64,000 nt of DNA from Candidatus Melainabacteria bacterium SSGW_16 (GCA_004769085.1 DUDS01000021.1:1-64000), one strand, 5' to 3'; shown: positions 32,901 to 63,044, counted from the first letter of the stretch. A program made the numbers and translations. Notes: generated by a model from the letters alone, not told the origin.

Positions 32901-33021
32901 TATAGCAATATATTACATTGATAATTCTGAACTTGAAATTGTATTTGATAATGGTACAAGAAAACAAATTAATCTCTCCAAATACAAAAACTTTATTCCC
33001 GCAAATTTTATAGGAATCTAG
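29935..33021 (+). CDS. Membrane protein fused to six FG-GAP repeats
   Basis: A 1028-residue protein. Residues 1 to about 525 are a polytopic membrane domain with more than ten helices and a GT-C-like layout. About 525-725 is an extracytoplasmic region (containing EPDYAEIFTKDTG and WIYMTPRMFRHYL) like that of YfhO-type proteins. From about 728 to the end there are six FG-GAP repeats, e.g. DFDGDKISDIAFYD, DYDGDSKTDIALFN, DYDGDGKTDIASWS, DYNGDGKTDIAIYY. A good Shine-Dalgarno precedes the ATG. The fusion directly ties the repeat class to a membrane transferase-like enzyme, mirroring the neighbouring divergent operon. The next gene starts at the very next base after the stop. Confidence 0.82.
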   Translation: MQFILYAIILSLLLGSFFWFCGHILRKELKTIDENNILLSHLINIALGASIFLIVLNLVSTISRSFLIGLIASLVVIIGIIGWQFKEFKNFYTGLLKSVTSNELFEKINKNTDKYFWILLGTVNFIYITAAISDTKLDRFGEGNTHIFNINQLISNIYPPKYAFLPTVSLRTHYGADIFGAVLSKISNCHPEISLDLLTIIFLNLSFLTVYAIVLKFLDSNPVNKYLVPFVVFLGWGPVTYLFTSIKDENAPGGILDKLFYVSQNTLADSATWSGNVLKWFFEPSSGIGVFFFLIGLYLLLRFFRNEEKFNFLIILGIFLSSFVIIDGAKLIILTIGTFLYLIFSYSPQTSFNKFKNETELLQKIGIVLGTALVLGFVHGNCIKFDSGFVSLEEYFRFGQKSGFIDEKFNIFKSNTLLLIAFTYGFYLAFKAKHEWLTFLIPYFIASLIIPVIISIPDSGAGKILMNTNILGAFSLPMVINFALQKFNLKDVKLTAFYLTVFILLGFSTLLFWAFGDKSKPVFNIDKGFVKYTGLQTFPTAQTIDEVKYREELAFINYIKSKSVRGEAIVTEPDYAEIFTKDTGLLSIAPPPNISGLPIRKEIIDQSFQDFRKSFLLDNKAWLSKNIRWIYMTPRMFRHYLPPQVRKILLNAYLNKGAELALSNKKLDNLENLKELYKVNPANLTSNISDNFAELINNFLHSNPKNLPYYIKQIALCPYFGIYGAKSNDFDGDKISDIAFYDPLKKTWHIVYGKDGKESETDLSASILLTLKGNDILIPVPSDYDGDSKTDIALFNRADSSWYILRSSDAGIEPTKTWCGEWSESPLPADIDGDSKTDTACYNGRDRRWPAFLSTVNSYHADVLDTTPVDITVYSDIDGDKKADYVFYNPQQQIFRIRTASIPGSGQESSKIFEFKMGTKSSRVVTGDYDGDGKTDIASWSPVSGKWEIAFAKDILASGSNEGNHKVITLGKPGDIPMPGDYNGDGKTDIAIYYIDNSELEIVFDNGTRKQINLSKYKNFIPANFIGI

Positions 33022-38856: not shown

Positions 38857-39804
38857 TCAAAGTTTTGGTTTTATACGCTTTATCTCCTTTATCTCACCAG
38901 TAAAATATTCTCCACAAACATTACAGTGAGCTCGATTAGCACCAACCGATATTTGATTGAAACTGATAGGATAAGCTGATAAAACAGAATCTACAACTAA
39001 TTCATCATCAATCCACACCAATAAGTTATTATTCACTTTATCTGAAATTTTGTTTGAATAAAAAGAATTAAAACTAATATCTACTTTATAAGTATGATCT
39101 GGATTTAACTTAAGTATCTTTCCATCAGCTCCGTGAACTCCCCAATGATCACCATTTATTTGTATCGTATCATCAGGCAGATATTTTACATAAACCGTAT
39201 CACCGAGCCCTGGTTTACCAGTAGAAAGAAGAGGCTCTGAAGAGTCAGGTCTATAATTAAACCGAAGTTTCATAGATATGGGGCCATGATACTTTCTGTT
39301 TTCATCTCTCATGAGCCTCCAGGAATAGCCATCATACCAATAAGCAATTTTAGAATTATCCTCACTCCACAATTGTCCTTTTTCAGGAGAGCTAGGGAAG
39401 GAAGCGTGAAAGATTTTCAAGGATGGAGTTCCACTAACAAGAAAGTAGCAAGTGCTAAGGGCATTGTACATTTGTGCACTATAATATTTAGATATTGAAG
39501 AAGGTGAAAACTTAAGAACAAGACTTCCAATAATAATTAAAAGTAAGGTTAAATAAGCATAGTATCTTTTAAAATTCGAAATAACAAAAACTTGTGTTAA
39601 TAAAAAAATTAAGATGGTAATAGAAAATAAAACTTTTATTTTCTCTGCAGAATAGAGCAAAACAAAAATAAAAGACAAAATAGGTGGAATAACAAGAAGA
39701 ATTAAAACAGCAGAAAACATAAAAGCATAAAATATCAATTTGCTTTTAGTCAGTACTTTCATAGTACTGTTTTTTATTTCATGATCTTTCAAGATACTTA
39801 CCAT
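38857..39804 (-). CDS. Membrane protein carrying a conserved C-terminal beta domain
   Basis: A 315-residue protein. Residues 25-130 form about four membrane helices. From about 132 to the end is an extracytoplasmic domain that is clearly homologous to residues 528-711 of the membrane protein at 58946-61081. Shared landmarks in order: GQLW, W-x-DG-x2-W-x-L, RD...KY-x-GP, SEPL-x-STG-x-PG-x-GDT-x-YVKYL, DHWGV, and C-x-VCG-x2-FTGEI. The aromatic, Gly-rich pattern suggests a jelly-roll, lectin-like fold, but I do not recognise a named family. Probably a receptor or acceptor-binding partner for the neighbouring GT-C enzyme. Confidence 0.72.
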   Translation of the reverse strand: MVSILKDHEIKNSTMKVLTKSKLIFYAFMFSAVLILLVIPPILSFIFVLLYSAEKIKVLFSITILIFLLTQVFVISNFKRYYAYLTLLLIIIGSLVLKFSPSSISKYYSAQMYNALSTCYFLVSGTPSLKIFHASFPSSPEKGQLWSEDNSKIAYWYDGYSWRLMRDENRKYHGPISMKLRFNYRPDSSEPLLSTGKPGLGDTVYVKYLPDDTIQINGDHWGVHGADGKILKLNPDHTYKVDISFNSFYSNKISDKVNNNLLVWIDDELVVDSVLSAYPISFNQISVGANRAHCNVCGEYFTGEIKEIKRIKPKL

Positions 39805-45034: not shown

Positions 45035-47386
45035 TTAACAATTTGTTGTTTCATGCTTTTCTAATTTCACCACAATACTTCTGGAAAAGTAAAAATAACC
45101 AATAATTGAAAGAAGAATTAAAACCAGTCCAAGGAATGCTGACTTATAAAATAAAGGTGGTATATAACCAATCTCAATAATGTGCTCACCTTTTGGTAAT
45201 TTAAAAAAACACCATCCCTTTAAATGCTGATTTAATTTTCTTCTTTTTCCATCTACAGCTATATAATATCCATTTCTGTATTCATTATGATAAAGCCATT
45301 TTGTTTTCACTGTAGAACTAATATGAGCTTTTATTTTTTCCCTGTCATATTCAAGTATTTTCAATAAACTTTCAGACGACAAAGGATATATCTGCCTAAA
45401 AAGCCATTGTGGTTTATTGGTATTGTATAAAACAATCTCCTCATCTTCATAAATAATAGGAAACTTACTCAAGATTTCTGAATATCTCTCCCAGTCTGTT
45501 GTTGCATTTATTTTTAAAACAACTGCTTTTGTTACTCCATACCGACTAAAGTATGTATTCAAGATCATTAATGGAGATCTAATTTTTGTTTTTAAGAAAG
45601 GATCATAATAATTCACTGCTCTTACATCATAAATACAGGAATAATTATGTGGAAGTGCAGTCACATAAGGGGCTTTATCATGACGAAAAGGAGCAAAGCC
45701 AACGAGAATATCTTTTTTACTAATATTCTGTTTAAGTCCTTTATTTAATTTAGGATATGGTTTTTCACCATAGGTATAAAATGCAGTATTTGTGCCAAAT
45801 ACTGCAATAATTATCGTCACCAGGAAAGAAAGGAAACCAGCATACCCAAGAACCTTTTTAAAGGCTACTAGTTTTCTTAAACTATTAAGCTGAAGCGTAC
45901 TATACAAAATTACTCCAAATATAGAAAGTGGAAAGCATTTAAATGGATCATGCATATTCTTTAGAAGAGGAATAAAGTGTTTTATAGGATAGATTAATGA
46001 AACAGGTCCACTAGGCAAGAAAAATAATACTGTAGCAAAAATTAGAAGCGGTATATAATCCCCTTTGTTGGTCCTTGCATATCTAACTATCCCAAGAAAA
46101 AATGGAATCATCCATAGAAGACCTATATAGAACATGTTTGTCATAAGAAAATCGTTCTCATTCCCCCATCCTTTTGGATGCTCTGCCCAGCTAATCGGAA
46201 ATGGGAAAAATGCTGATATAACAGCATCAAACGAAATGCCGGTATGAGAAATTAATGGTTCCCGAGCTTTCCCAACCTGCTTCAGGACAGAAATCTGTGA
46301 AATAAGAAGTGGTGAAATAATTCCGCATGTAAGAATCATGGAACAAAAATAACTACCAAATAATTTTCTTCCCCGTCTGAGCTTAATTTCTCCAAAAAGA
46401 TATGAAATAAATTCAATTATCAAAACATAAGAGAAATATTGTGCATTTCCGGCATAAAAAAATAACCCTCTCACTATTCCGACACATAAAAACCAAATCC
46501 AGCTTGCACCTTTTTTAATTGCAAATAGAAAAAAATATAATAAAGCAGGTAAATATAAAACAAATGCGCTTGCATAATACCAGCTTCTGATTGTTATAAA
46601 AAAATAAGGTGAAAATAAAAAAGAAACAGTGGCTACAAAGGATAAAAGTGAATCTATCTTAAGAAGTCTAAATGAATAGCCGAGAAATATGGCGCCAGTA
46701 AACATGCACAAGATAACATATATTTCCATAGTAATATATGGTTTTTGGAGAATGTATCTGCCTAGTGCATAAGAAATTATCATCAAAGGATCGAAAATTG
46801 CATACGTTCCTGTTTCAAACAACGGAGCACCAAAGTGTTGGTAATTATCAATAAAGGGTGATTTCCCCTGAAAAATGAGATCGAGTCCAACAAGTATTTT
46901 AGGAAAAAATTGTGCATGATTATCATCTTGTGTAAAAAAATAAGGATACATAAATTCTTTAAATAAGAGAAATAAAACAACAAAAGCGCCAGTAATCCAT
47001 ATAAGCAAGATAGAGACAGGTTTAGATTCAGTTTTTTCAGAACTAAAGCTGAAAAGCGATTTTAAAATTATTGTTAGAGTAGGATAAACACAATATATAA
47101 AAAGAGCAGCAAAAAATAAAATTACCGGAATAAATTTATGAAACCAATTATCTTCTGGAACATGCTGGGATTGAAAAAAACTAATAATCACTGGGTAATT
47201 AAACCAGGTTCCTTTAATCACGTTGGAAATTTTTTCTATCGTAATTAATCTTGGTAGAGACCATAAAAAAAATATAAAAAATATATATAGTCCAAAAATT
47301 ACATAAAATTTGTTGACCAATCTTGTACGGAATTTAAATACTAAAAGCAAAGTAAGTGAAATAATTATAAGGAAAGATAAAAGCAT
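45035..47386 (-). CDS. YfhO-like membrane protein
   Basis: A 783-residue protein with about 12-13 helices and a C-terminal extracytoplasmic region followed by a final helix. TQDDNHAQFFPKILVG in the first large loop carries the acidic pair of GT-C enzymes. The C-terminal block GYYIAVDGKRRKL...KLPKGEHIIEIGYIPPL is characteristic of YfhO proteins, which add sugars to teichoic or other surface polymers. It is a close paralogue of the next upstream gene (47391-49781), 4 bp away, so both are one transcript. Confidence 0.82.
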   Translation of the reverse strand: MLLSFLIIISLTLLLVFKFRTRLVNKFYVIFGLYIFFIFFLWSLPRLITIEKISNVIKGTWFNYPVIISFFQSQHVPEDNWFHKFIPVILFFAALFIYCVYPTLTIILKSLFSFSSEKTESKPVSILLIWITGAFVVLFLLFKEFMYPYFFTQDDNHAQFFPKILVGLDLIFQGKSPFIDNYQHFGAPLFETGTYAIFDPLMIISYALGRYILQKPYITMEIYVILCMFTGAIFLGYSFRLLKIDSLLSFVATVSFLFSPYFFITIRSWYYASAFVLYLPALLYFFLFAIKKGASWIWFLCVGIVRGLFFYAGNAQYFSYVLIIEFISYLFGEIKLRRGRKLFGSYFCSMILTCGIISPLLISQISVLKQVGKAREPLISHTGISFDAVISAFFPFPISWAEHPKGWGNENDFLMTNMFYIGLLWMIPFFLGIVRYARTNKGDYIPLLIFATVLFFLPSGPVSLIYPIKHFIPLLKNMHDPFKCFPLSIFGVILYSTLQLNSLRKLVAFKKVLGYAGFLSFLVTIIIAVFGTNTAFYTYGEKPYPKLNKGLKQNISKKDILVGFAPFRHDKAPYVTALPHNYSCIYDVRAVNYYDPFLKTKIRSPLMILNTYFSRYGVTKAVVLKINATTDWERYSEILSKFPIIYEDEEIVLYNTNKPQWLFRQIYPLSSESLLKILEYDREKIKAHISSTVKTKWLYHNEYRNGYYIAVDGKRRKLNQHLKGWCFFKLPKGEHIIEIGYIPPLFYKSAFLGLVLILLSIIGYFYFSRSIVVKLEKHETTNC

Positions 47387-47390
47387 AGAT

Positions 47391-49781
47391 TTAAGCTTCT
47401 TTAAGGCTTTGTTCCTTCATTAAGATCAGATAAGCCAGAAATGCCAGTACAATAAGAATTCCGCCCAATAATATTGAATATCCAAACAGTGGAGGAATAT
47501 AACCAATCTCAATAGTATGCCCACCTTTTGGTAATTTAAAATAACACCATCCATGCCAACTTTGATCCAATTTATATTTTTTACCATCAATAATAATATA
47601 ATAACCATCTCTATACTCATTATGATAAAGCCAGCCAGATTCAATTGGGGAATTAATTTTTGCTTTAATTTTTGTTCTGGTGTATTCAATGATTTCCGGA
47701 ACAACCTCAGGCATATAATTATTGCCCACAGGGACTGAAAAACTATAAGGCCACAATAACCATTTCGGATTATCAAAATCATAAAGTGTTAATAAATCAT
47801 CTTTATAAATTATTTTAAATTTTTCAAACTGACCAGCAAAATAGCGCCAGTTTGTAGGGATACTTGCATTCTGAATAATAACCTTCGTTACACCTAATAA
47901 TCCAAAATAATCTGTAAGATCTGATTTTGGTGGTGGTTGCTTAATCATTGTCGGTAACAATGGATCGTAAATATTAACAACCATTAGATCATATAAAACT
48001 GAGTAATTATGCGGCAATAAAGTTACATATGATGGTTTGTCATATCTTATATGAGTAAAAGTACATATTGTGTCATCTTTTTTAACCAAATCCCTGATTT
48101 CTTGTTTCAGATCAGGATAAGGTTTTTCTGCATATAAGTAAAATGCTGTATCAGTTAAATAAATAGCAACAATTCCTGTAATAATCATGTTTAATACCAA
48201 AAGAAAGTTTAAGATATTTTTTATTTGAACTATCTTTTTCAATTCGGTCAGTATAAAAGCAGAATAAATCATAATTAAGAACAAAGCAAAAGGATAGAAT
48301 TTAAATGCCTTATGCATCTTATTTAAAATCGGTATGAAATTCTTCATAGGATAAATAAGAGAAACAGCTCCGCTGCAAATGATAAATAAAAACATTGCCA
48401 ATAAAAGTATTCGATAGTACAAGCATTTTCCGGTCCTGATATAAAGAAGCGAACCAGCATAAAAACACATCATCCACAAAATCCCAATATGCCACATATT
48501 AGGCAGTAACCACCAGTTCTTATTACCCCACGTGGGGGTAGATTGGAAGAAAGGTGACGGTATAAAAGAAGAAATAAGTGCATCTATTGGCATACCACCT
48601 ATTGAAACAAGAGGTTCAACATGACGTTCAACACCCTTAAGCATTGTTATCTGGGAAATAAAAAGCGGGGAAATCAACCCAAATGTAAACAACAGAGAGC
48701 AAAAATACCCAGTTAAAACTTTTTTTCTATTCTCACTGTTTAATATAAGATAAATATATGAAACCAGTTCAATTAAAACACCATAAGTAAAAAACTGGGA
48801 ATTCCCTGCATAAAAGAATAATGCTCTTGCTAAACCACTTCCCAATAACCACAAAATATCATTTTTACCATGTAAGATCTTTAAAAAAAAGTATAAAAGC
48901 AGAGGAAGATAAAATACAATTCCAAATACATAATACCAACTTCTGCCAACCATAAGAAAATAGCCGCAAAGAATGTAGCAAAATACTGCTGCAATCCCTA
49001 CCAATGAATCAATTTTTAAATTCCTCAGACAAATTCCAAAGAATAGAGCACCAAAAAACATGCTAAGAATGGCGTAAATTTCAATTGTCAGAAAAATATT
49101 TTTAAAAAATTCTCTTGCTATAAAGTACGAGGAAATCATAATCGGATCAAGAATGGCATAAGTACCAATTTCAAAGATAGGCGCTCCAAAATGCTGAAAG
49201 TTATCAATAAAAGGAAACTCTCCTTTTAACAGCAACTGAATACTAACGATTATCTTGGGGAGGAACTGGGAATGTGTATCATCCTGGGTAAAGTAAAAAG
49301 GTGTATTTGTTTCTTTCAACAACAAAATTAAAAATATAATTGAAGAAATAAATAGAATATCCCCGATTGATATTATTGAAATTGTGGAAGCCTGTTTTGA
49401 AAACGGGAATTTATACTTAAGATAATTTATAATACTTGGCAATTGAAAAGAAATAAGAATAAGTCCAAGCGCAAAAAATACGGGTATTAATTTTGATATT
49501 AATTTATGATCAGGCGTGTATTCAACACCATAGTCAGATTCAAGGATCGGGAAATGAATCCCTAATGAATCAAAAAAGTCCATAAAAGGATTATTTGCAA
49601 ATAGCCGGGACAAAATCCAAATAATAATTACTGTTAAAAAATAAATACCGACAACCTTATTAAGATTTTGTCCTATAGATTTAAATAAACCAATTGATGC
49701 TTTTTTCTTTAAAAAACTAATCGTCTCATATAAGAGTGTTGATATAAGCACTATTAGAAGAATCAATAAAAATATTTTCAT
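47391..49781 (-). CDS. YfhO-like membrane protein, tandem paralogue
   Basis: A 796-residue protein with the same organisation as its downstream neighbour: TQDDTHSQFLPKIIVS in the first large loop, HFGAPIFEIGTYAILDPIM, and the C-terminal block GYYIIIDGKKYKL...KLPKGGHTIEIGYIPPL before a final helix. The two share sequence along the whole length, so they arose by gene duplication and may form a heterodimer or transfer different sugars. It lies 62 bp downstream of the HAD phosphatase gene, so it may be read from the six-gene operon upstream. Confidence 0.82.
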   Translation of the reverse strand: MKIFLLILLIVLISTLLYETISFLKKKASIGLFKSIGQNLNKVVGIYFLTVIIIWILSRLFANNPFMDFFDSLGIHFPILESDYGVEYTPDHKLISKLIPVFFALGLILISFQLPSIINYLKYKFPFSKQASTISIISIGDILFISSIIFLILLLKETNTPFYFTQDDTHSQFLPKIIVSIQLLLKGEFPFIDNFQHFGAPIFEIGTYAILDPIMISSYFIAREFFKNIFLTIEIYAILSMFFGALFFGICLRNLKIDSLVGIAAVFCYILCGYFLMVGRSWYYVFGIVFYLPLLLYFFLKILHGKNDILWLLGSGLARALFFYAGNSQFFTYGVLIELVSYIYLILNSENRKKVLTGYFCSLLFTFGLISPLFISQITMLKGVERHVEPLVSIGGMPIDALISSFIPSPFFQSTPTWGNKNWWLLPNMWHIGILWMMCFYAGSLLYIRTGKCLYYRILLLAMFLFIICSGAVSLIYPMKNFIPILNKMHKAFKFYPFALFLIMIYSAFILTELKKIVQIKNILNFLLVLNMIITGIVAIYLTDTAFYLYAEKPYPDLKQEIRDLVKKDDTICTFTHIRYDKPSYVTLLPHNYSVLYDLMVVNIYDPLLPTMIKQPPPKSDLTDYFGLLGVTKVIIQNASIPTNWRYFAGQFEKFKIIYKDDLLTLYDFDNPKWLLWPYSFSVPVGNNYMPEVVPEIIEYTRTKIKAKINSPIESGWLYHNEYRDGYYIIIDGKKYKLDQSWHGWCYFKLPKGGHTIEIGYIPPLFGYSILLGGILIVLAFLAYLILMKEQSLKEA

Positions 49782-49843: not shown

Positions 49844-50521
49844 TCAGATTTGAGACAGAAGTCCATCCTTGATAATAATTGTTCTTATATTTTCTGATTT
49901 ATCCTTCCTGTAGCTATCACCAATTATTACAGCATCTTTTCTGTTCCCAGATACTTTTTTTAATGCATAACTAAAAATAAATGGATCAGGTTTTTCAACT
50001 CCTGCTTCCTCAGAACTTACAATAAAATCGACATAAGAATAAATTTTTAGTTTGATTATCTTAGAAAACTGTATTTGTGAGCACAAGTCAGTAGCAATTA
50101 CAATCTTTTTTTTGTTCTTCTTACAATATTTTAAAAATGGTATAACCCACTGAAAAAGTTTCATTTTATAGAGGAAAGCTTTCCAGTAAATATCTTCAAG
50201 TGCTAGAGATTCTTTAAACATACTTCTCTTAAATATAAGTTCAAGCATTTTTTGGAAATACAAGAGTCTTGAATGTGAGGCTGCTTGGTTCCTTAGTGGG
50301 ATTTTCACAAGATTTCTTGCCCCATTATACTTTCTTAAAAAGTTTTTAAAAGTTATTCTCCCTATCTTTTTTAAATAAAACCAGTAAGAAGTTCTTATGG
50401 CATGAACATGGCAGGAATCATAATCATAAAGGGTATTATCCAGATCCAAGAGAATTATTTTTTTTGAATCAGCTGCTTTACAAAGTTCTAAAAATATATT
50501 TTTTGAAGTTAACTTTCCCAT
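49844..50521 (-). CDS. HAD-superfamily phosphatase
   Basis: A 225-residue HAD hydrolase. The start is taken as ATG 50521 (MGKLTSKN) rather than an upstream TTG. Motif I is LLDLDNTLYD, motif II VIATDL, motif III lysine in EEAGVEKPDP, and motif IV IIGDSYRKD. The size and the C1 cap fit small-molecule (sugar phosphate or nucleotide) phosphatases of the Gph/YjjG type. It is the last gene of the tight operon that starts at 57850 and overlaps the GDPD-like gene by 13 bp. It probably dephosphorylates an intermediate made by the kinase or aldolase of the same operon. Confidence 0.9.
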   Translation of the reverse strand: MGKLTSKNIFLELCKAADSKKIILLDLDNTLYDYDSCHVHAIRTSYWFYLKKIGRITFKNFLRKYNGARNLVKIPLRNQAASHSRLLYFQKMLELIFKRSMFKESLALEDIYWKAFLYKMKLFQWVIPFLKYCKKNKKKIVIATDLCSQIQFSKIIKLKIYSYVDFIVSSEEAGVEKPDPFIFSYALKKVSGNRKDAVIIGDSYRKDKSENIRTIIIKDGLLSQI

Positions 50522-51087
50522 AAATGTGGTACTTTTGTACAAACTGCATCAATCTTAAAATTTTTAAGTGTATTTTTAAACTCTTTTATTCTATCAGTGG
50601 AATAGCCTTGAAGCTCCGGAGAAACTATACAGAGCTTGAAACAATTTTTCAGTTTTTCATATGAATTACTATCAAGCGGCATTTTATTAAAACAGTCAAT
50701 CCAGACCCATTTTGTAATATTTTTAAGTGCCAAAGCCTGCTCCAGTGGCTCATATTCAGAAAATCTCACAGCTATATTATTTTCACCTTTTTTTGAAAGT
50801 TTTATTATTGCAGGAAAGGAAAGATCCAGGAAAAAATAATCCTTTACGCGATAAGAATTAATAAGCCTCAATGTCTCATCTTCAATACCCTCAGTTTTTA
50901 CATTCAATATAATAAATGAATGTTTGTATTTCTTTAATAGGTCTTCAAGATATTCACCGCTTTTATAAGGATCATGCTGAAGAATAAGTTTACTTCCCTC
51001 ATATCTGATATCAATCTCTATTCCCATATTAAATGGAACAGTTTCAAGGTCTTTTACAGTGTTTATTCTGTGCCTTATATAAAACAT
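50509..51087 (-). CDS. Glycerophosphodiester phosphodiesterase-like protein
   Basis: A 192-residue protein with a GDPD-type TIM-barrel pattern: IRHRINT at the N-terminus (His for the usual HRG), GIEIDIRYEG with the metal-binding Glu-x-Asp, and LILQHDPYK. Downstream is VKTEG, as in family members, and it is shorter than typical GDPDs (about 240). No signal peptide, so cytosolic. In this operon it may act on a phosphodiester made by the double nucleotidyltransferase, or catalyse a related lyase or transferase step. It sits 2 bp after that gene. Confidence 0.75.
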   Translation of the reverse strand: MFYIRHRINTVKDLETVPFNMGIEIDIRYEGSKLILQHDPYKSGEYLEDLLKKYKHSFIILNVKTEGIEDETLRLINSYRVKDYFFLDLSFPAIIKLSKKGENNIAVRFSEYEPLEQALALKNITKWVWIDCFNKMPLDSNSYEKLKNCFKLCIVSPELQGYSTDRIKEFKNTLKNFKIDAVCTKVPHLWES

Positions 51088-51089
51088 TA

Positions 51090-53387
51090 TTACTTACCGT
51101 TTAAATCAATTTCCCCTTTTGCAATTTTATCCTTTAACTCGAAAATATACTTGAATGTTCTCTTAATTAGTTTCCACTTCGTTTTAAAATCAGAACCACC
51201 GCCACCTTTTGCCTCCCCATAAAGCCTGTCCTTAAAATCCACAGGAATTGTTACAAAATTACATCCTTTCTTTTTTGCAAGATATAAAACATAAAGGTCC
51301 AGTGAAAAGTCATCAGGTGGATTTTTCATGCCATTAAAAAAATTTCTCGAAAAAAGCTTTGGCTGAGCATTAATCTCTGAGAGATAAGTGCCAAGAGAAA
51401 GACTTGCAAGAAGCTGCATGGCAAATGAAAAGAATTTCTCACCTGCCTTTCTGTTTGTCCTGTAGCCCTTCACAAAGGTATCAGGTCTTGTCTTTGACTC
51501 TTCTGTATAAAGCTTATATGCACGGATTACATCTTCCGGATTACATTGCATATCTGCATGTGTCCATGCCAAAACCTCGCCGATAGAATTTTTTAATCCC
51601 TGAACTATACCATTACCATAGCCTATATTTACGTCAATCTTTACTGGTTTAAGATAGCTATATTTCTTTTTTGCTTCCTGAAGAAAATTCCATGTGTTAT
51701 CCTTCGAGCCATTATCAACAATTACAAGCTCCATGTTGTTTTTATCAATCACCTGATCAAACCTGGTTAATAAAGTATTGAGATTTTTCTCCTCATTAAA
51801 ACACGGTACAACGATTGATAAAGAAATCTTGCTCGTACTCTTAAGGCTGAAATATCTGTTCCAATATTCATATGTCTTTAAATCATTTGGGGTTCCCCAG
51901 CATATATATTTCTCCAATTCAAAAACATGCACATTAAGATTATTTTTCACTAAATAATTCATACAGTTATCGATATAGAATTCGTTATTAATTCTGTCAT
52001 TTGCCTTTATCATTTCTTTTACATTATCAATGAAATACCTTCCTTTCCTGAACCAGAATGAACCTACAACTGCATGATCTCTGACAGGGTTATCGCTCAC
52101 AGGAATCTTAACTGAGACCTTTAAAACTCTGCTGCCATCTCTAACTAGGACCCACCCATACATTTTAGGGTTTCTTTTAACTGTTGGATTATTCCTGAAG
52201 GTAAATATCATTGCATCCACCCCGGAGCCAGGAGAAATCATCTCATTAAATTTTTTAAAATCATAAACCATTCCATTATCACAAGCACCTATCATAAGAG
52301 GTTTATCCGGTTCAATAGCTTCCTCCGCCAACAGCACTGTACAAGCTTGTCCTTCAGTAAGGTAATCCACCTCAATAATTTGTGCAGATTTAAATTCTCC
52401 TGAAACTGATTCCTTTATATCTTTTCTTTCAGCCAGCTCTTTTCTCATAATAAATATATACTTGTTTCCTTCCGGAATGGTTCTTGCCGCCTGAATAAAC
52501 ATAGGAAATCCATCAATATTAATCAGTGGTTTTGGAAGAGTATATCCTTCATGCTGGAATCTTTTCCCCTCACCAGCCATTGGAATTATTATATTCATTG
52601 CGTGTTTTACTTTATACCTTACAGAATTCTTTTTTTGTCTGAAATAATCGGACCAATACAAGTATTCTTCAAGATCTTCCGGTGTCCCCCATTGCAACAT
52701 GAAAGGTATTTCATAAATAATTATATTCAGATTATCTTCTTTCATCAGTTGAAATAACTGACTAACATAAAATTCATCATTAATTTTCCATTCTGGTCTT
52801 TTCTCAATCTCATGCATATATTTCTTTAAGTACTTCCCTTTTTTGAAATAATAAGTTCCTGAGCTGGACCAGTCATCCATTTTATTTTTATGCCAAGAGT
52901 GTTTCTCTCTTATTTCCTTCATCCATAGATCACTGGCATCAAGCGTTGCATAATTATTTGGACCAAGAAGATGCGGATGAAACCCTCGATAACAAACCAC
53001 TGCACCATCACAGTTACTTTCAACAATCTTTCTTTTAAAATCCTTGTAGTCCCATAACCAAGAAAAATCACAGTAGTTTACAATTATTTCTTCATTATCA
53101 TCAATGCATGATTCCATATTTCTAAGCCCATATAAAGGACCTTCTTTCTTATAGGGTATAGTTATAATTCTGCTTTTCGGTGCAATTTTTCTCAAAACAT
53201 CAACTATATTGGTGTCTTTTTCCTGCTCTTCATTAATAGCAAAAACAAAATCATCATCTTTAGAAAAATTTCTGACAATATGTTCAACTATTGGGCAGCC
53301 ATCAACAACAATTAATGGCTTTGGGATCTTATATCCTGCATCCAGGAATCTTTTTCCTCTGCCTGCAAGTGGTATTAATACCTTCAT
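51090..53387 (-). CDS. Fusion of two sugar nucleotidyltransferase domains and a GT2
   Basis: A 765-residue three-domain protein; ATG 53387 shares its A with the upstream TGA stop. Domain 1 (about 1-258): MKVLIPLAGRGKRF and PKPLIVVDG, ending in WGTPEDLEEY. Domain 2 (264-515): MNIIIPMAGEGKRF and PKPLINIDG, ending in WGTPNDLKTY. Both are nucleotidyltransferases with the G-x-G-x-R-F loop, diverged copies of one another. Domain 3 (about 521-765): GT2, SLSIVVPCFNEEKN, IVDNGSKDNT, THADMQCNPED. It makes an activated sugar or polyol phosphate and probably uses it. The substrate is not predictable. Second-domain motif residues such as ACDNGM differ from domain 1 (NYCDFSW), hinting at different jobs. 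Confidence 0.85.
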   Translation of the reverse strand: MKVLIPLAGRGKRFLDAGYKIPKPLIVVDGCPIVEHIVRNFSKDDDFVFAINEEQEKDTNIVDVLRKIAPKSRIITIPYKKEGPLYGLRNMESCIDDNEEIIVNYCDFSWLWDYKDFKRKIVESNCDGAVVCYRGFHPHLLGPNNYATLDASDLWMKEIREKHSWHKNKMDDWSSSGTYYFKKGKYLKKYMHEIEKRPEWKINDEFYVSQLFQLMKEDNLNIIIYEIPFMLQWGTPEDLEEYLYWSDYFRQKKNSVRYKVKHAMNIIIPMAGEGKRFQHEGYTLPKPLINIDGFPMFIQAARTIPEGNKYIFIMRKELAERKDIKESVSGEFKSAQIIEVDYLTEGQACTVLLAEEAIEPDKPLMIGACDNGMVYDFKKFNEMISPGSGVDAMIFTFRNNPTVKRNPKMYGWVLVRDGSRVLKVSVKIPVSDNPVRDHAVVGSFWFRKGRYFIDNVKEMIKANDRINNEFYIDNCMNYLVKNNLNVHVFELEKYICWGTPNDLKTYEYWNRYFSLKSTSKISLSIVVPCFNEEKNLNTLLTRFDQVIDKNNMELVIVDNGSKDNTWNFLQEAKKKYSYLKPVKIDVNIGYGNGIVQGLKNSIGEVLAWTHADMQCNPEDVIRAYKLYTEESKTRPDTFVKGYRTNRKAGEKFFSFAMQLLASLSLGTYLSEINAQPKLFSRNFFNGMKNPPDDFSLDLYVLYLAKKKGCNFVTIPVDFKDRLYGEAKGGGGSDFKTKWKLIKRTFKYIFELKDKIAKGEIDLNGK

Positions 53388-54196
53388 CACTCTGCCTCTA
53401 ACAGCTTCTGCCTGTATTGTTCTTCTTCCATATTTCTTATAAAATTCACATCACTTACAGACAGATAATCAATCTCCCATTTTTTTAAATTTATAAGTTC
53501 GGCAACCTTGTTTGAATAAACATTTAATTCTGATATTGCAATTTTCTGTTTATTTGATAATTTATTTTTATCAAGTGCAGAATAAACTACATGATCAGGT
53601 GTTAAAAACCCTTCTAAACTGATACTTTTGTAAGAGTCTGGCGAGTATTTAAAATAACCGGAGAGAGTATTAATAACTTCACTATGTAATCCAGTACACC
53701 CATCTTTATTTGGCGCAGAAACAAAAATACCATGGTTCTTTAAAAATAAAACCAATGGTTTGTTTAAATCTATGTCATTTGCTTTTACAAAGTCATGGAT
53801 TTTCTTAAATAAATTTTTACCGGGATTTGCATAATCAATCCAGAAATAATTTTTCCCGTTAAAAAGCTCATAAAAAACTTTTTTACCCTCTTTCGCACAT
53901 ACAATCCCACCTACAACAATAGGGTGAGTGTGAATAATATATTTGCCAAGCAAAAAATGAATAGCAGTTTCTAATGATGGTCTCAAATTTGGATTAATTA
54001 GTGGTTTCATTGTTCCAATTTCAAGAGAAACATATCCATTCTCCAAAGTCACATCTTCCAAAAAGAAACCAGATGCCTTAACAAGCATTTCATTACTGGC
54101 TTTTACAGAACAATTACCTCCTCCTCCCTGCACAAAACCGGGGTGCTTTGCAGCATAAGCAGATAAGTCTACTAAGTCTTGAATTAGCCTGCTCAA
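53387..54196 (-). CDS. Class II aldolase/adducin family protein
   Basis: A 269-residue protein, TTG start at 54196, the only one fitting the family N-terminus ([20 protein letters not shown]). The phosphate-binding GGGGNCSVK and the zinc histidines in YIIHTHPIVVGGI are visible, with NHGIFV carrying the third His. Such enzymes cleave or form sugar phosphates, or act as epimerases. The operon setting between a kinase-like fusion and a double nucleotidyltransferase suggests it makes the phosphorylated carbon chain that is then activated. It overlaps the upstream gene by 4 bp and the downstream one by 1 bp. Confidence 0.87.
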   Translation of the reverse strand: MSRLIQDLVDLSAYAAKHPGFVQGGGGNCSVKASNEMLVKASGFFLEDVTLENGYVSLEIGTMKPLINPNLRPSLETAIHFLLGKYIIHTHPIVVGGIVCAKEGKKVFYELFNGKNYFWIDYANPGKNLFKKIHDFVKANDIDLNKPLVLFLKNHGIFVSAPNKDGCTGLHSEVINTLSGYFKYSPDSYKSISLEGFLTPDHVVYSALDKNKLSNKQKIAISELNVYSNKVAELINLKKWEIDYLSVSDVNFIRNMEEEQYRQKLLEAE

Positions 54197-56274
54197 ATCC
54201 TTTTTGCCTTCATTTTATTATTGTAAATCAAAAGAAAAATAAGCTGGGTTATTCCATCATAATTGCTCAGCCATCCTGGCGATGATACAAGGAGCTCATC
54301 AAAATTAAGACCCATGTCAAATGTAAGTGAGATTATCTCCTGATCTGATATCAAACCATTAATCTCAATTTCCTGATTTATAAGATTTTCAGAATGTTTG
54401 TGAGTAACTTCAAGTGTCCTTATTTTTGACAAGCTTGAAAGTAAATTTTCAAGATTTATACTATTATCCAGTTCATACTTTACCTTTATAGGTATATCAG
54501 CAGGTTTAAGATCATTAAGATCAATATCAGATAAAGGAATATACCTGATTATAAGATCAGCAAATTCCCTTTGTGGTTTAATATATTTTTCGCTGTCTTT
54601 TGTACGTGAATTTATCTGCTCAACAACTTTTTCTTTTCGATAACCTCTTTCTACCATATCTCTGCCAACTTTCCAGAACTGTCTGAGTCTTTCATCAGGA
54701 TCCATAAATATTTTTATATCAATCTGTTCTCTCATACTCTTCAGATAAAACGGATGAAGACCTATAAAGAAAACAAATTTGTTCGGCTCAACTGTCTGTG
54801 GATTTGTAAATCTCCCTGTATCGTGATTATAATGAACAAGTTCAATTTCTCTTTCTTCTTTAAGCGCAACTGCAGACTCAACTTCCTGATGAAGCTTATT
54901 ACTTGCAGGATCAAGATGAGTGTAAACCTTCCAGTTTTCATCTCCTCTCTCCCATTTATGGAAGTTATCTCCATAAACCGGCACACATGAGGTTTTACCT
55001 AAAAGCTTTTCAAATATTTCATATGTAGTATGCTTGCCTGAGCCGCTATCCCCACCTATACCTATTAAAAGAGGTTTTTCTTTTATCTTCAGTTCTTCAT
55101 TTCGCTTCACACCACTTTGATACATCCAGATTGCACTAAAACCAACCGAAGATAAAAGCAATGAAACAGCAAGATTATGAAATAAAACAGGATCAATAAA
55201 ATTACTTAAGTGGGTATAACTCTTTTCAAAAAAGAACGTGAAATAAAGGGCATAAATCAGGTTATAAAGAATAAAAGGCGCTCTTGAATGATCAACATTG
55301 TTAATATAAAAATAAATCAAAAATGGCAGTGACCATACAAACCAGCCAGGCATTGGAGTAACAAATATAACAAGACATGCAAAAACTACTCCGGCAAACA
55401 TCATGAGTATTTCTTTATTAAGTTTTTTATAAGAGGAGAATTTCATAAAGAGGAGAAATATAACTATAGGACAAACAACTATACTCAGAGTATTTGAAAC
55501 CGGAAGTGAAAATTGATAAATTCTTTGTTGTTCAACTGCCTTAAAAACCATTTGTATAAATGCTTTTGAGCTAATATAGGGAGAAATAAAAAGCAGATAT
55601 AAAGCTAAAAATGACAAGAGGTATAAAGTAAATTTCAAAACACTTGATCTTTGTTTATAAAGAAAAAGAAATATAAAAGGTGTAAAAATAAATATGTGTG
55701 TCTTTGTTGCTGCAGCAATGGCAAGAAAAATAATTGAAATATAGTATTTTCTGTTAAGTAAAAGGAGAATTGCATAAAGGAATATTGCTGTTGGAATCAG
55801 GTCAAGCTGACCATGTATATAGTTAATAAAAAATATAATCGGTGAACACCAGTAGGTATAAAGAACCATTTCCTTTTTTGTAGGAAAGATTTTTAGAAAC
55901 AGATTGAACATAAAAATATCAAAACCAAGAAGAGGGAGCCTCATTACAAACAAATCAATACCAGAAATAATATTCCAGTTACTTGCCATTAATTTATTAA
56001 ATACAATCACAGGAGATGTCATTATCCAGAGCATTACAGCAGGATAAGGAAACATTTTTAATTCATTTAATGAATAAAAGTAATCCCAGGGATTCTTAAA
56101 GCCGGACTGAACAAACCACTTTATAAAGGGGGTAAAGTATTCTGTCAGATAATGAGATGAAAAGAAAAATGAAAAAATAATTTTAAGTATCAATATTGAA
56201 ATAAATAGTTTTGAAAAAAATATTTCATTTGGTTTCTGCTCTCTAAATGAAGGGTTAATATTATTTCTCCTCAT
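54193..56274 (-). CDS. GT-C-like membrane protein fused to a uridine-kinase-like domain
   Basis: ATG at 56274 is preferred to an in-frame TTG 15 nt upstream. About 693 residues: 1 to about 395 polytopic (about ten helices; early loop [17 protein letters not shown], like PIG-M/GPI-mannosyltransferase-like proteins), then a cytosolic kinase-like domain. The P-loop [11 protein letters not shown] is at 407-417, where the Ser/Thr after Lys414 is His415. Downstream are [24 protein letters not shown] and [15 protein letters not shown], which fit the uridine kinase/phosphoribulokinase layout. The domain may phosphorylate a sugar or polyol at the membrane. The unusual His in the P-loop should be noted. 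It overlaps the flavoprotein gene by 14 bp. Confidence 0.78.
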
Positions 56275-57850
56275 GATATTCCATTTCAACGTTAACTGCC
56301 CATATATTGTCCTTTGACTTTATACCATTAATTATGTTTTCAACCGCTGTCATTGCAGTAAGCATTGAATGATCCTGATTATTATAGCGATGCATGCCAT
56401 TCCTACCAACTAAAAAGAGATTCTCAATTTTGTCAGTAAATTCACGTATAACATCAAACTGATCATAGGTACCAAAATATGCAGGATAAGTATTCTTTAG
56501 TCTTATCACAGTGCTATCCAATACATCGTTCTTTTCAATAATGTCAATTTTCACTAGTTCATCTATTGCAAATTTTGAAAACTGTTCATCAGTCATACTC
56601 CATAACTCATCTCCCACGTTACAAAAATACTCTAGTCCTATCCAGGCCGTATCAGGGTCTTTTACCATATACGGGCTCCAGTTATTAAAAATCTGAAGTC
56701 TGCCTAATTTTACGTCTCTTTCCTGAATATAAATCCAGTTATCAGGAACAATGTTATTTATTGTAGGAATATTTGTCTGATTTTTAATTTTTAATTTTTT
56801 TAGCAATAATCCTACAGTAATGAAATCTCTGTAAACAAGTCCATCAGAAATTTTGCTTACATTTTCAGGTACTTTATTTCCCATACAGTGAATAAGTTCT
56901 TTGACAGGCATTGTTGAAAAGAAGTAATCTCCTTGGACATCTTTAATTTCTCCTGTTTTTGTATCTTTTATCTTTACTTCTACAATATTATTTCTATCAA
57001 GTTTTAGTCCTATAACTTCATGGTGTAAAAATACTTCCCCACCTTTTTCCCTGATTATTCTTGTAGTTTCCTCCCACATCTGACCAGGACCAAGTTTGGG
57101 GTATAAAAATTTTTCTATCAGGCTAGTTTCTGTATCTTTCTGAGAAAGCGAAGAATCTTTCGAAGATATTGCTTTTAGGGCATGTAAAATTGCTTTTGTT
57201 ACTGACAGTCCTTTAATTCTCTGTGCTCCCCATTCAGGTTTTATCTTGTCACATGGGGTTCCCCAGACTTTTTCTGTATAGTCCTTAAAGAAGGTGAGAT
57301 AAAGCTCTCTGCCAAATCTGTTTATAAAAAAATCTTCAAGCGATTTTTCATGTTTAATAGGGAAAAATTTTATTTTTAAATAACTTAAACCAATCCTGAT
57401 CATTCTTATAAAACCAAGATTGTTTATCGTATTCATATTCAAGGAAACCGGGTAGTTAAAAAATTTCCTTAGAAAGAATATCCTTGAAAGTCTTTTTCTG
57501 ATTAACATTACTTTGTCATTTTTTTCCGGATCAGGTCCGTTTTTTGACATTGAAATGGTTTTCTTTTTATTCTGATATGTAAGTTCCGTTGTTAATTCAT
57601 CTCTGGCAGGCATTCCCTGTAAAGGCATAATATTTTGCCACCATTCCATAACTCTGTCTGATTTGGAAAAAAATCTGTGTCCACCCATATCTATTTTGTT
57701 ACCCTTGTAGTTAACTGTTTTTGCTATTCCACCAATATCACCACTGGCTTCAAAAATAATTGGTTTAATATCAGTTTTGTGTAAAAACTCATACGCTGCA
57801 GTTAGTCCTGCAGGGCCTGCACCAATAATAATTGCTGTTTTTTTACTCAT
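56261..57850 (-). CDS. FAD-dependent oxidoreductase, UDP-galactopyranose-mutase/amine-oxidase-like
   Basis: A 529-residue flavoprotein. [13 protein letters not shown] (residues 10-22) binds FAD, followed by [15 protein letters not shown] and [14 protein letters not shown]. These are the opening motifs of the protoporphyrinogen-oxidase/UDP-galactopyranose mutase-like group. The C-terminal [16 protein letters not shown] closes the FAD site. Members in glycan loci rearrange or oxidise nucleotide sugars. It is the first gene of the six-gene operon, 174 bp downstream of the oxygenase gene. The activity is not fixed by sequence. Confidence 0.85.
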
Positions 57851-58945: not shown

Positions 58946-61081
58946 TTACTTATAAATAATTCTCATCCCTGCTCTTCTTGCTTCTATTATCTCACCTGTA
59001 AACTGTAGACCACATACACCACAATCAACCTGATTTTTACCTATAACAATTTGTTCGGGTTTTGTAGCATGAAATCCTGTAGGTCTGTCAAGCAGTGTCA
59101 TCCCATCCACTTTTACAATTACATTTCTACTTAAAGCACCTAAGTCAATACCAGGATAAAAAGAACCAAAACTCACCTCAATAATATATGCCCGATTTGG
59201 ATCTATTTGAAATATGTTGCTTGGAAAACCTTCTACACCCCAATGGTCATAGCATACCTGCCCTGTTGTAGCAGATAAATATTTTACATATATAGTATCC
59301 CCTGAGCCTGGTACACCGGTGGAAACAAGAGGTTCTGATTCACCGTGTCTTGGCTTAAATAAGACTTTTAAAGTCACAGGGCCTAAATATTTGTTTCCAT
59401 CGTCCCTTATTAAAGACCAATTTTTTCCATCAAACCAGAATAATGTTTCATCGCCATCAGGAGTCCATAGTTGTCCGGTTACAGGATATGATGGAAAAAC
59501 ATTTTTATCATCAAATCGCAAAACCTCAAGAACACCTGATTGTGATACTTTCTTAGAAGCAAAAATACTTATGTAATTATCTGCTTTTTTAAAGAAATTT
59601 CTGATTGGCGGTTTGGCATGCTCCGGAACAGACCAGTAGTTTAATTTAAATTTGAGCATAGTCATATTAGCAGTATAAATACTTAGTAATGCAAGAAGTA
59701 AAAATATTATCCTTACAGAGATTTTTAGTTTTCCTCCCTTTTTATCTGTCCAGTTAAAGAATTTAATTGCTGCAAATGAAAAAATTAGAAATGTTGGCAT
59801 AAGATCCGCTGTATATCTTCCTGTCATTGCCTGAAAGGAAAAGAAGAATAAATTAGAAATTACAAGGGCAAGAAAAAGGAAAATTCCTATTCCTCCATAT
59901 GCGCTAACTAATAAAAAAAGCCCAATAACAGAAGTAAAAAATAAAAATGGTGTGTGAATTATTGCCGGGTTGCCCGGTTCTATAACATCAAACCAGGTAT
60001 CTTTAAATTTAAAAATATTCCTGTAATCAAAAATTTCTATAAACGGAAATTTATCCGAAAAATGTTCTTTATGCGGGATTAGATGAAAAACTACTGAATG
60101 AGGGATCCGTGAATAATCCATAACCCCTTTTGTTGAAAGCCATAGCTGAAGCCTGCCTTTGTCAGCAATTGTTTTCTCGTAATAATGGTAGTCCATCATT
60201 ACAAATGGATTTCCCATTTTTTCATAATTTAACTTCACCTGGAAAAGAATACTTAAACCAGTAGGAATAATTAAAACAAGATAAGCCAGTAAGAGTCTTG
60301 AAACAGTAATATGAGTTTTCTTCCAGCCAAGCCAGTTTAAAACTGACTTGAGCACTTTGTTTTTAAAAAAATCACTTAAATTAGAAAGAAATAAAACAAA
60401 AATCAGTAAAAGTATGACAAGGAAAGGGAAAATACCAAAACTTGCACGGCTTAATAATGCAAAGCCAGAGCTTAATGACATAGCTAGCAAAAGCAGAAGG
60501 CCTATCCTGTCGGAAAACCAAAAATTAATAAATGCCCAGATAAAAACACATACATTTGCAAGTCCCCAGATTATTGCTTCATGATAAACATACGAAGATG
60601 TAAGCAGAATAACGTTATAAGAACCATAGGCAAAGACAAGAAAGAAGAGTATTGTATAAAAGTATCCTGCAACCCTCCGAAAAGCAAATGTACAGGAGAG
60701 CAGAATAACTATTGCCGCAATAAGATTTGATATCCTTGACCAGTCAGTATTATAGAATCTAGGGAATACACTAAAAATGCCCCTTACAAAGCCAGGGAAT
60801 GGCCCAAAATACATGTACCTTTTCCCGTTATGATAATATGTTTCCCCAAAATCAATTACTGCAGGGTCAAGATCAATTCTCCCTTTTAAGAGTTGATCCC
60901 ACGTGTTTACATAGTTTATCCCCATGTACTCTCTCGTGAATAGATTCATTTCACCATGGGTAACTATAAGTGTATAAAACCAGACAGTAAAAATACCTAC
61001 AAAAATAAAGAATAAAACTAAAATAGCTTTCTTAGGATTTAGCATCCTTAGCTTACGATCAAAATATGAATACCAGTCCAT
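58946..61081 (-). CDS. GT-C-like membrane protein with shared C-terminal beta domain
   Basis: A 711-residue protein. Residues 17 to about 505 are polytopic (about eleven helices) with an extracytoplasmic loop containing REYMGINYVNTWDQLLKG and YYHNGKRYMYFGPFPG. Residues 528-711 form the domain shared with the 315-residue membrane protein at 38857-39804 (GQLW, SEPLVSTGVPGSGDT, YVKYL, DHWGV, CGVCGLQFTGEI). It is about 67 bp downstream of nothing on its own strand, so it begins its own unit and leads into the oxygenase gene 66 bp after its stop. Probable transferase with an outer recognition domain. Confidence 0.75.
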   Translation of the reverse strand: MDWYSYFDRKLRMLNPKKAILVLFFIFVGIFTVWFYTLIVTHGEMNLFTREYMGINYVNTWDQLLKGRIDLDPAVIDFGETYYHNGKRYMYFGPFPGFVRGIFSVFPRFYNTDWSRISNLIAAIVILLSCTFAFRRVAGYFYTILFFLVFAYGSYNVILLTSSYVYHEAIIWGLANVCVFIWAFINFWFSDRIGLLLLLAMSLSSGFALLSRASFGIFPFLVILLLIFVLFLSNLSDFFKNKVLKSVLNWLGWKKTHITVSRLLLAYLVLIIPTGLSILFQVKLNYEKMGNPFVMMDYHYYEKTIADKGRLQLWLSTKGVMDYSRIPHSVVFHLIPHKEHFSDKFPFIEIFDYRNIFKFKDTWFDVIEPGNPAIIHTPFLFFTSVIGLFLLVSAYGGIGIFLFLALVISNLFFFSFQAMTGRYTADLMPTFLIFSFAAIKFFNWTDKKGGKLKISVRIIFLLLALLSIYTANMTMLKFKLNYWSVPEHAKPPIRNFFKKADNYISIFASKKVSQSGVLEVLRFDDKNVFPSYPVTGQLWTPDGDETLFWFDGKNWSLIRDDGNKYLGPVTLKVLFKPRHGESEPLVSTGVPGSGDTIYVKYLSATTGQVCYDHWGVEGFPSNIFQIDPNRAYIIEVSFGSFYPGIDLGALSRNVIVKVDGMTLLDRPTGFHATKPEQIVIGKNQVDCGVCGLQFTGEIIEARRAGMRIIYK

Positions 61082-61289: not shown

Positions 61290-63044
61290 ATGAGACTGCT
61301 TGTAATTGGTGCATCCGGCTTAGTTGGTAGCACCATATGTGAAGAAGCAAAAAAATGTAATATTCCTGTTGAAGGTACATACAACACCTTTTACACCAAC
61401 GGGTTGCATAAGCTCGACTACAGTAAAAAAAACGAGGTTGTAAAAATTATAGAAGAACAGAAGCCTGAAATCATAATTTGCCCTGCAGGAATAACAAATG
61501 TTGACTGGATAGAACAAAATCCACAAAAAGCTTGGAAAACAAATATTGAAAATATCAGAACAATGCTTGAAACTGCTGCTGCTTACGAAATTCCTGTTGC
61601 ATTTTTCAGCACAGACTATATTTTTGATGGTAAAAACGGTCCATATTCTGAAAATGATCTTTCAAATCCACTTAATATTTACGGACAGCAAAAACTTGCT
61701 GCTGAATTAATGCTTAAATCATACATGCCTCAAAAACATTTCATTTTCAGGACTTCATATGTGTTTGGTTTTGAAAGACAGGAAAAAAATTATGTCTATA
61801 GTCTGACCAGATCACTTTATGAAGGTAAAGAAACAAAAGTAGCAAATGATATGTTTATTACCCCTACGTATGCACCTGATTTGGCAAAGTTTGTTTTAAA
61901 AATAATAGAAAAAAATAAATACGGCACGTATAACATATCTGGAAGCAGCTATCTGCCTCGTTTTGAATTTGCCAGAATGATAGCAAATACTTTTAAATTT
62001 AATGAAAATCTTGTAGTTTCTTCAAAATTCCATGAGATGAAAGTTATTGCAGACAGGCCACTAAAAGGCGGGCTGAAAAATGAGAAGGCAATAAATACTA
62101 CTGGTTTCACCTTTACACCATTAGATCAATCACTAAAAGAAACCAAAAATCTTATGGAGAAAAATAGTCAGTTCCCTCCAAAACCATCTGTAGAAGAAAA
62201 ACAAATCACATCACTCAAGAGAGAAAAGGGAACAGATTCAAAAATTTGCATTTTTATTCCCTGTTTTAATGCAACTGTTACCCTGCCAAAAGTCCTCGAA
62301 AGAATACCTGCAAGCATTAAGGACAAAGTCCAGGAGATATTTATTGTAGACAACAACAGCGTTGATTATACTTATTTGCTTGCAGTTGGTTACAGAGAAC
62401 ATTCAGATATAAAAAATTTAAAGATCCTAAAAAATCTAAGCAATTTTGGTTACGGTGGCAGCCAAAAGCTTGCGTATTCTTATGCAATTAAACAAGGATA
62501 CGATATGGTGGTTATGCTTCATGGTGATGCACAATATGCCCCTGAAAAGCTTCCTGTAATGATTGAAGCAATGGAAAAAGACAAATCAATTGATTTACTG
62601 TTCGGTTCAAGGATGACAGGGGATCCGCTTAAGGGGGGAATGCCTCTTCACAGATATCTGGGTAATATCGCACTAACATTCATTCAGAACCTGCTTCTTG
62701 GAACCCATATTAGTGAATTTCACTCAGGGTACAGAATATTCAGAACAAGGGCGTTAAAAGAAGTTCCATTTCATCTCTGCAACAATGATTATCACTTTGA
62801 TACTGAAATTATAATTTTATTTATAAAAAATAAATTTAAAATAAGAGAAGTACCAATTGATACCCATTATGGCGATGAAAAATGCTATGTAAATATATGG
62901 AAATATGGTCTTCGTGTCCTGCTTACAACTTTTTGCTTTTTCCTAAATCAGAAAGGAATCAGAAAATATGAACTTTACAAAGACGGGCTTAAAGCAGACA
63001 CTGACAAAATTCTAAAAGAACTAAAGACAGAGATTATTCCTTAA
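61290..63044 (+). CDS. Fusion of RmlD-like reductase and GT2
   Basis: A 584-residue protein. Residues 1 to about 285: RmlD-like extended SDR, with GASGLVG at 7-13, FSTDYIFDGKNGPYSE, YGQQK as the catalytic Tyr-Lys, and RTSYVFG. This reduces a 4-keto nucleotide sugar to a deoxysugar. Residues about 317-560: GT2 with ICIFIPCFNATVTL, VDNNSVDYT, HGDAQYAPE and SGYRIF, of the undecaprenyl-phosphate type. The fusion would couple sugar synthesis to transfer. The stop lies inside the end of the convergent RmlC-like gene (11 bp overlap). Confident on both domains; substrates unknown. Confidence 0.88.
   Translation: MRLLVIGASGLVGSTICEEAKKCNIPVEGTYNTFYTNGLHKLDYSKKNEVVKIIEEQKPEIIICPAGITNVDWIEQNPQKAWKTNIENIRTMLETAAAYEIPVAFFSTDYIFDGKNGPYSENDLSNPLNIYGQQKLAAELMLKSYMPQKHFIFRTSYVFGFERQEKNYVYSLTRSLYEGKETKVANDMFITPTYAPDLAKFVLKIIEKNKYGTYNISGSSYLPRFEFARMIANTFKFNENLVVSSKFHEMKVIADRPLKGGLKNEKAINTTGFTFTPLDQSLKETKNLMEKNSQFPPKPSVEEKQITSLKREKGTDSKICIFIPCFNATVTLPKVLERIPASIKDKVQEIFIVDNNSVDYTYLLAVGYREHSDIKNLKILKNLSNFGYGGSQKLAYSYAIKQGYDMVVMLHGDAQYAPEKLPVMIEAMEKDKSIDLLFGSRMTGDPLKGGMPLHRYLGNIALTFIQNLLLGTHISEFHSGYRIFRTRALKEVPFHLCNNDYHFDTEIIILFIKNKFKIREVPIDTHYGDEKCYVNIWKYGLRVLLTTFCFFLNQKGIRKYELYKDGLKADTDKILKELKTEIIP

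Follow-up and report, generated by a model that had tools for sequence, protein, structure and literature searches.

A self-contained gene module in Candidatus Melainabacteria bacterium SSGW_16 is moderately likely to make a nucleotide-activated pentulofuranose and to place this sugar on an extracytoplasmic glycan. L-xylulose or D-ribulose would be the leading candidates for this ketopentose. The module lies in a window of 64,000 nucleotides (GCA_004769085.1 DUDS01000021.1:1-64000), the whole stretch of DNA that was analyzed, in which six ORFs were found on the minus strand at 49844-57850 (Table 1). The preliminary description had joined all six in one activated-sugar pathway. A candidate pathway stands, with no counterpart described in the papers searched, and all the genes but that of the flavoenzyme belong to a real compact unit of five. 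The gene spacings reported there (14, 4, 1, +2 and 13 bp) were reproduced using the likeliest start codons. HMM searches detected HAD_2 and class II aldolase domains (4e-14 each) and a PRK/uridine-kinase-family domain (3e-35), the last fused to a membrane domain. The earlier domain assignments agreed with Pfam and NCBIfam, except that the GDPD-like gene had no match to any family in either collection, GDPD models included.

Table 1. Features of the locus, in window coordinates
Feature	Position	Strand	Basis or remark
HAD phosphatase	49844..50542	-	nearest curated family ribulose-1,5-bisphosphate 5-phosphatase; likely start ~50521
Compact GDPD-fold phosphodiesterase-like protein, 192 aa	50509..51087	-	conserved residues and AF2 model
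NT1, nucleotidyltransferase domain 1 of 766-aa protein (51090-53390)	52629..53387	-	NTP_transf_3
NT2, nucleotidyltransferase domain 2 of 766-aa protein	51831..52601	-	4evw and GlmU matches
GT2 domain of 766-aa protein, DPM1/ArnC/GtrB-like	51090..51824	-	Pfam Glycos_transf_2 and PDB matches
FucA-type class II aldolase with intact zinc site	53387..54196	-	HMM (4e-14) and PDB matches
Phosphoribulokinase-like kinase domain, fused to GT-C domain	54193..55095	-	PDB phosphoribulokinase, 7e-36
GT-C membrane glycosyltransferase domain	55096..56289	-	AF2 fold match
Flavin amine-oxidase family protein of the widespread family PRK07208	56261..57850	-	HMM (2e-265); outside the conserved module

Other features of the window were recorded separately. 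A pair of adjacent paralogous membrane proteins of ~790 aa each is encoded at 45035-49781, and in the relative G002 one homologue of these proteins adjoins the module (L011:13810-16176). Between 22783 and 33021 lie several large proteins in which DxDGDxxxD-type (FG-GAP/VCBS-like) segments are repeated; in one of them (29935-33021) the segments are fused behind a membrane domain. One C-terminal domain is common to a single short protein and to several large membrane proteins encoded around the cluster (38857-39804 and 58946-61081 of the window, and L012:1800-4956), and an unusual fusion of dTDP-4-dehydrorhamnose reductase (RmlD) with a GT2 domain lies on the plus strand at 61290-63044.

To assess conservation, a profile of the GDPD-like protein was searched against GTDB genomes, which gave 181 relatives, and the best 80 were kept. 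The first table comprised 86 loci picked by the GDPD-like protein, several of which end at contig edges, and the neighbors in these loci were the nucleotidyltransferases and GT2 (75 loci), GT-C (68), the kinase (67), the HAD (66) and the aldolase (64). Eight domains (HAD, GDPD-like, two nucleotidyltransferases, GT2, aldolase, GT-C and kinase) were then counted in a de-duplicated locus set to which two plasmids were added. All eight were present in 56 loci, spread over at least 11 phyla, with a median span of 7.3 kb and with every gene on a single strand in 53 of the 56. Such linkage is far beyond chance, and the conservation as a unit by which the preliminary description had proposed to check the operon is borne out by it. 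GT-C and kinase were one protein in 64/65 loci, NT1 and NT2 in 50/74, and the GT2 and GT-C parts belong to the conserved unit as fusions. Since the loci had been picked by the GDPD-like protein, an independent control was performed with the GT-C domain: among 292 genomes sampled from the phylum, exactly 3 contained it, the same 3 that have a close GDPD match, while NT2 was found in 4 of the 292, namely those three and a fourth, where it lies at a contig edge. The association is not only positional, because three genomes with a seemingly solitary GDPD gene (L021, L027 and L057) hold the remaining module elsewhere in the genome. The neighbors at L032 (a peptidase and a biotin carrier) and the lipase at L045 look unrelated to the module. 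A more distant GDPD-like protein was also observed together with a HAD and a single nucleotidyltransferase of the module type (L100:7160-9337, L101:7977-9267 and L134:9992-11937); these sites are polysaccharide clusters on plasmids and a contig of viral origin.

Membership of the flavoenzyme was judged on the same loci. As a sixth pathway enzyme it would oxidize the sugar or contract its ring in the manner of UDP-galactopyranose mutase, and the 14 bp overlap of its gene with the GT-C-kinase gene in the window genome speaks for such a role. Neither the flavoenzyme nor the adjoining 2OG oxygenase occurs in any of the 86 tabulated module loci, and the closest relative (G002, locus L018) carries the same genes, with proteins 52-73% identical, and lacks the flavoenzyme. 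Judged by this relative, the window genome is a Candidatus Caenarcanales-like representative of the Melainabacteria. The flavoenzyme was therefore rejected as a module member, and a role for it in the pathway is highly improbable.

The kinase, HAD and aldolase bear on the sugar. In searches of the PDB the kinase was nearer to phosphoribulokinase (PRK; 7e-36) than to uridine kinase (2e-13). Residues D43, H46, R50, H91, K142, R145, D146 and R150 were kept in 97-98% of 63 sequences, and the catalytic and substrate motifs of PRK (D-x-x-H...R; YxH; K..RD...RG) are present. In the P-loop GK[ST], the S/T position is often D or H, and also S or T, within the set. These conserved residues line the PRK site; the roles of the Asp-His pair were taken from published work (PMC9978339). 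By its residues the kinase is phosphoribulokinase-like, and ATP-dependent phosphorylation of ribulose 5-phosphate at C1 is predicted. Among all NCBIfam models, the HAD was matched best by NF053830, ribulose-1,5-bisphosphate (RuBP) 5-phosphatase (8e-40), at 136.9 bits against a curated cut-off of 330 bits, which makes it, on sequence, a relative and not a proven member of that family. Its motif residues D33, D35, T151, K184, D209 and D214 were kept in 92-100% of 65 sequences. The aldolase profile matched L-fuculose-1-phosphate aldolases in the PDB, and the zinc-binding His triad and catalytic Glu (E76, H89, H91 and H155) were invariant in 28 sequences. A PRK-like kinase, a HAD nearest to RuBP 5-phosphatase and a FucA-like aldolase together imply pentulose phosphates, and the carbonyl compound that the preliminary description had left unspecified may be narrowed to these. 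A precedent is the haloarchaeal non-carboxylating pentose bisphosphate pathway, in which an operon pairs a HAD RuBP 5-phosphatase with a FucA-like ribulose-1-phosphate (Ru1P) aldolase, as in the module, and RuBP is converted to Ru1P and then to DHAP and glycolaldehyde, with Ru1P seen in cyclized form (PMC9700705). Unlike the module, this pathway is degradative and starts from nucleosides, and it is without the phosphoribulokinase-like enzyme, nucleotidyltransferases, GDPD and glycosyltransferases that the module contains (PMC9700705). The three enzymes and the haloarchaeal precedent converge on ketose-1-phosphate chemistry.

The same module could act on a sugar other than a pentulose, if the aldolase joined DHAP to another aldehyde such as glyceraldehyde or lactaldehyde, so that a different ketose-1-phosphate was made and the kinase and HAD tuned its phosphorylation. 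Class II aldolases take many aldehydes, the haloarchaeal relative included (PMC9700705), and the HAD score well under the RuBP-phosphatase cut-off would fit; the near-complete retention of the PRK catalytic residues in the 63 kinases argues against it, as do the variant loci. In Omnitrophota, L020 and L050 contain the kinase and HAD and are without the aldolase, which indicates that the aldolase is not always needed. L026 and L077, also from Omnitrophota, keep NT1, NT2, GT2 and the GDPD-like protein, with a Zn alcohol dehydrogenase, a ribulose-phosphate 3-epimerase and a xylose-isomerase-like barrel replacing the kinase, HAD and aldolase. In Planctomycetota variants, likewise without kinase, HAD and aldolase, a GtrA membrane domain is fused to a ribulose-phosphate 3-epimerase domain (L042:6116-7291 and L024:399-1676). 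The use of this epimerase in aldolase-free variants points to pentuloses, and a non-pentulose product is unlikely. The draft assemblies of the L026 and L042 genomes contained no match to the GT-C domain or to the module aldolase.

For a pentulose, the steps proposed here follow from enzyme family and gene context. The PRK-like kinase would phosphorylate ribulose- or xylulose-5-phosphate at C1 (step 1). These sugars cannot form a furanose, because the phosphate occupies O5, and removal of the C5 phosphate by the HAD would free O5 and give a ketose-1-phosphate able to cyclize (step 2). Class II aldolases act on ketose-1-phosphates, and D-ribulose-1-phosphate and L-xylulose-1-phosphate are C4 epimers. 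A retro-aldol/aldol sequence resets C4, as in the related L-ribulose-5-phosphate 4-epimerase; the FucA-type aldolase may set the stereochemistry in this way (step 3).

The next step would involve NT1, NT2 and the GDPD-like enzyme. The NT1 motifs GxGxRF, KPLI, CD and WGTP were kept across 74 sequences; the NT2 profile had its best PDB match in 4evw, followed by GlmU, and its motifs were likewise kept in 74 sequences. Distant nucleotidyltransferase homologues include cytidylyltransferases, among them glucose-1-phosphate cytidylyltransferase and IspD. The GDPD-like profile had no significant match among PDB sequences. Its AlphaFold2 model (pLDDT 97.1) matched bacterial and archaeal glycerophosphodiester phosphodiesterases best in the PDB (E about 1e-5). 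Across 46 sequences, H6, E24, D26, H38, N62 and K64 were invariant, and R7 was almost invariant. The protein has the TIM-barrel fold and the H-R, E-x-D and H-D motifs of GDPD enzymes; in place of E-x-K, the motif of the third metal ligand, it has an invariant N62-x-K64, by motif reading and not by superposition.

The donor needs a phosphate at the anomeric carbon, C2, and a C1-to-C2 scheme is proposed for this reason: NT1, the GDPD-like enzyme and NT2 would turn the C1 phosphate into an anomeric nucleotide diphosphate (step 4). Most economically, NT1 would act at C1, a 1,2-cyclic phosphate would form, the GDPD-like enzyme would open it to the 2-phosphate, and NT2 would activate the product. 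GDPD-family chemistry proceeds via cyclic intermediates, and the scheme would account for the linked occurrence of a phosphodiesterase with two nucleotidyltransferases. The part given to the GDPD-like enzyme comes from chemical reasoning and is the least supported step. Alternatively, the two nucleotidyltransferases might activate two different sugar phosphates, with the GDPD-like enzyme clearing by-products such as sugar cyclic phosphates and no C1-to-C2 transfer taking place. Some furanosyl nucleotides are known to break down via cyclic phosphates, and the planctomycete loci L042 and L024 contain the NT2 type and GDPD and are without NT1. Proofreading by the GDPD-like enzyme has to be taken seriously as a competing role. 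This alternative as a whole is rather unlikely, since with one GT2 and one GT-C a second activated sugar would have no user inside the module, and since NT1, NT2 and the GDPD-like protein are kept as a group in the stripped phage versions described below.

The transfer half comprises GT2, GT-C and, in 31 loci, a GtrA-family gene, which typically adjoins GT2; the window locus has no GtrA next to the module. The best PDB matches of the GT2 domain were dolichol-phosphate mannose synthase, ArnC and sll0501. The GT-C model (AF2, pLDDT 93.5) matched the folds of GPI mannosyltransferase I (PIG-M type), ArnT, ALG3 and ALG6 in the PDB, all of which use polyprenyl-phosphate sugars or related lipid donors, and GT-C relatives matched GT87/ALG3 in Pfam. 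From these likenesses the sugar is most likely moved onto polyprenyl phosphate, flipped and transferred outside. In step 5, GT2 would load polyprenyl phosphate, GtrA (if present) would flip the product and GT-C would transfer the sugar outside, probably as a side branch. A product of the CDP-polyol type, resembling CDP-glycerol or CDP-ribitol and attached through a phosphodiester, is quite improbable: the distant cytidylyltransferase homology and the Zn alcohol dehydrogenases of the Omnitrophota variants would suit it, against which the standard module is without a reductase and, for transfer, has a GT2 of the DPM1 type and a GT-C in place of a polyol-phosphate transferase. The polyprenyl-phosphate route resembles that of the GtrA/GtrB/Gtr cassettes, which are likewise mobile and cassette-like and combine a GtrA flippase, a polyprenyl-phosphate-sugar GT2 and a membrane transferase acting outside. 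Gtr cassettes are known to use UDP-glucose made by the host; the module differs in bringing its own six-enzyme nucleotide-sugar pathway and in the kinase domain carried by GT-C.

Phage versions show that the module splits naturally into a nucleotide-sugar half and this transfer half. The GDPD-like protein had no match in the annotated phage collection and six in IMG/VR. All six nucleotide-sugar genes are present on the 111.8 kb contig L132 (L132:3600-9877), and nucleotide-sugar genes occupy L133:7035-13185 on the 63.5 kb contig L133, where no HAD was found within the 20.6 kb read. On both contigs the kinase stands alone, unfused, and no GT2, GtrA or GT-C was found in the stretch read; the phage proteins still have most of the catalytic residues. 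On L132 the next genes encode a TET-associated glycosyltransferase (PF20691, 2e-10) and a T4 baseplate protein. On L133 a thymidylate-synthase-family protein and a phage helicase follow, and a portal gene lies close by. Because these contigs keep the set without GT2, GtrA and GT-C, they suggest that its product can be a soluble nucleotide sugar, and they hint at a use on DNA bases. L132 and L133 are a candidate new DNA-base pentosylation system. In known phage DNA pentosylation, nucleotidyltransferases are likewise thought to supply the activated pentose for bases (PMC6024577, PMC12838424): RB69 DNA contains arabinosyl-hmC, with NTP-transferase-like and sugar-isomerase-like candidate genes (PMC6024577), and that of Thanatos a pentose-cytosine (PMC12838424). 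Unlike the module, neither account was found to report the kinase, HAD, aldolase and GDPD set (PMC6024577, PMC12838424). Cyanophages S-SM2 (L139:7998-11309) and Bellamy (L140:7941-11300) contain an NT1-NT2 pair that shares ~40% identity with the protein of the window; next come an unknown protein of roughly 370 aa and a class II aldolase; in the stretch read, both are without a GDPD-like gene, kinase and HAD.

A clue to the product came from Yersinia. In the O-antigen of Y. enterocolitica O:10, a backbone of D-rhamnose bears branches of L-xylulofuranose; the backbone is made by an ABC-transporter cluster of 11 orfs, among which a xylulose-activating gene is not listed (PMC11380512). In Yersinia proxima IP37424, the dcuC-galU interval contains genes for a TerC-like protein, manC, manB, wzm, wzt, a methyltransferase, a GT, gmd, rmd and two further GTs, an order that matches the published O:10 order (PMC11380512). 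In this strain the module (L097) and the O-antigen cluster lie on separate contigs. Among 149 genomes of the family, the long O-antigen GT was found in Y. proxima only, and the module in Y. proxima and one other genome, which has two side-by-side GDP_Man_Dehyd-family genes near the module. The link to xylulose, which comes from one genome, is a lead rather than proof.

Mobility of the module was evident from plasmids. A blastn search of 5,426 E. coli genomes placed it on two plasmids and no chromosome. In NZ_CP145712, the plasmid whose annotation was examined, the module lies between IS26 copies in the order NT1-NT2, GtrA, GT2, GDPD-like, GT-C-kinase, HAD and aldolase, and also holds a 586-aa protein without family match. 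On an Azospirillum plasmid it adjoins ABC-transporter genes and gmd. The O-antigen of E. coli O97 also contains xylulose, which the chromosomal blastn result leaves unexplained; O97 may have a more divergent copy or another route, or may fall outside the genome set.

No description of a pentulofuranose donor or of this gene set was found in the literature searched, which took in a minority of subscription papers. As a more specific proposal, the phosphate would walk from C5 to C1 (kinase and phosphatase) and from C1 to C2 (NT1 and the GDPD-like enzyme, via a 1,2-cyclic phosphate) before activation by NT2, and this route would be common to surface glycans and DNA-modifying phages; it is put forward tentatively, as possible rather than probable. 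If confirmed, the donor route would be new, with its parts drawn from known families and its transfer logic Gtr-like. Bacterial O-antigens can contain pentulofuranose residues, and the module would provide a concrete gene set for their activated donor.
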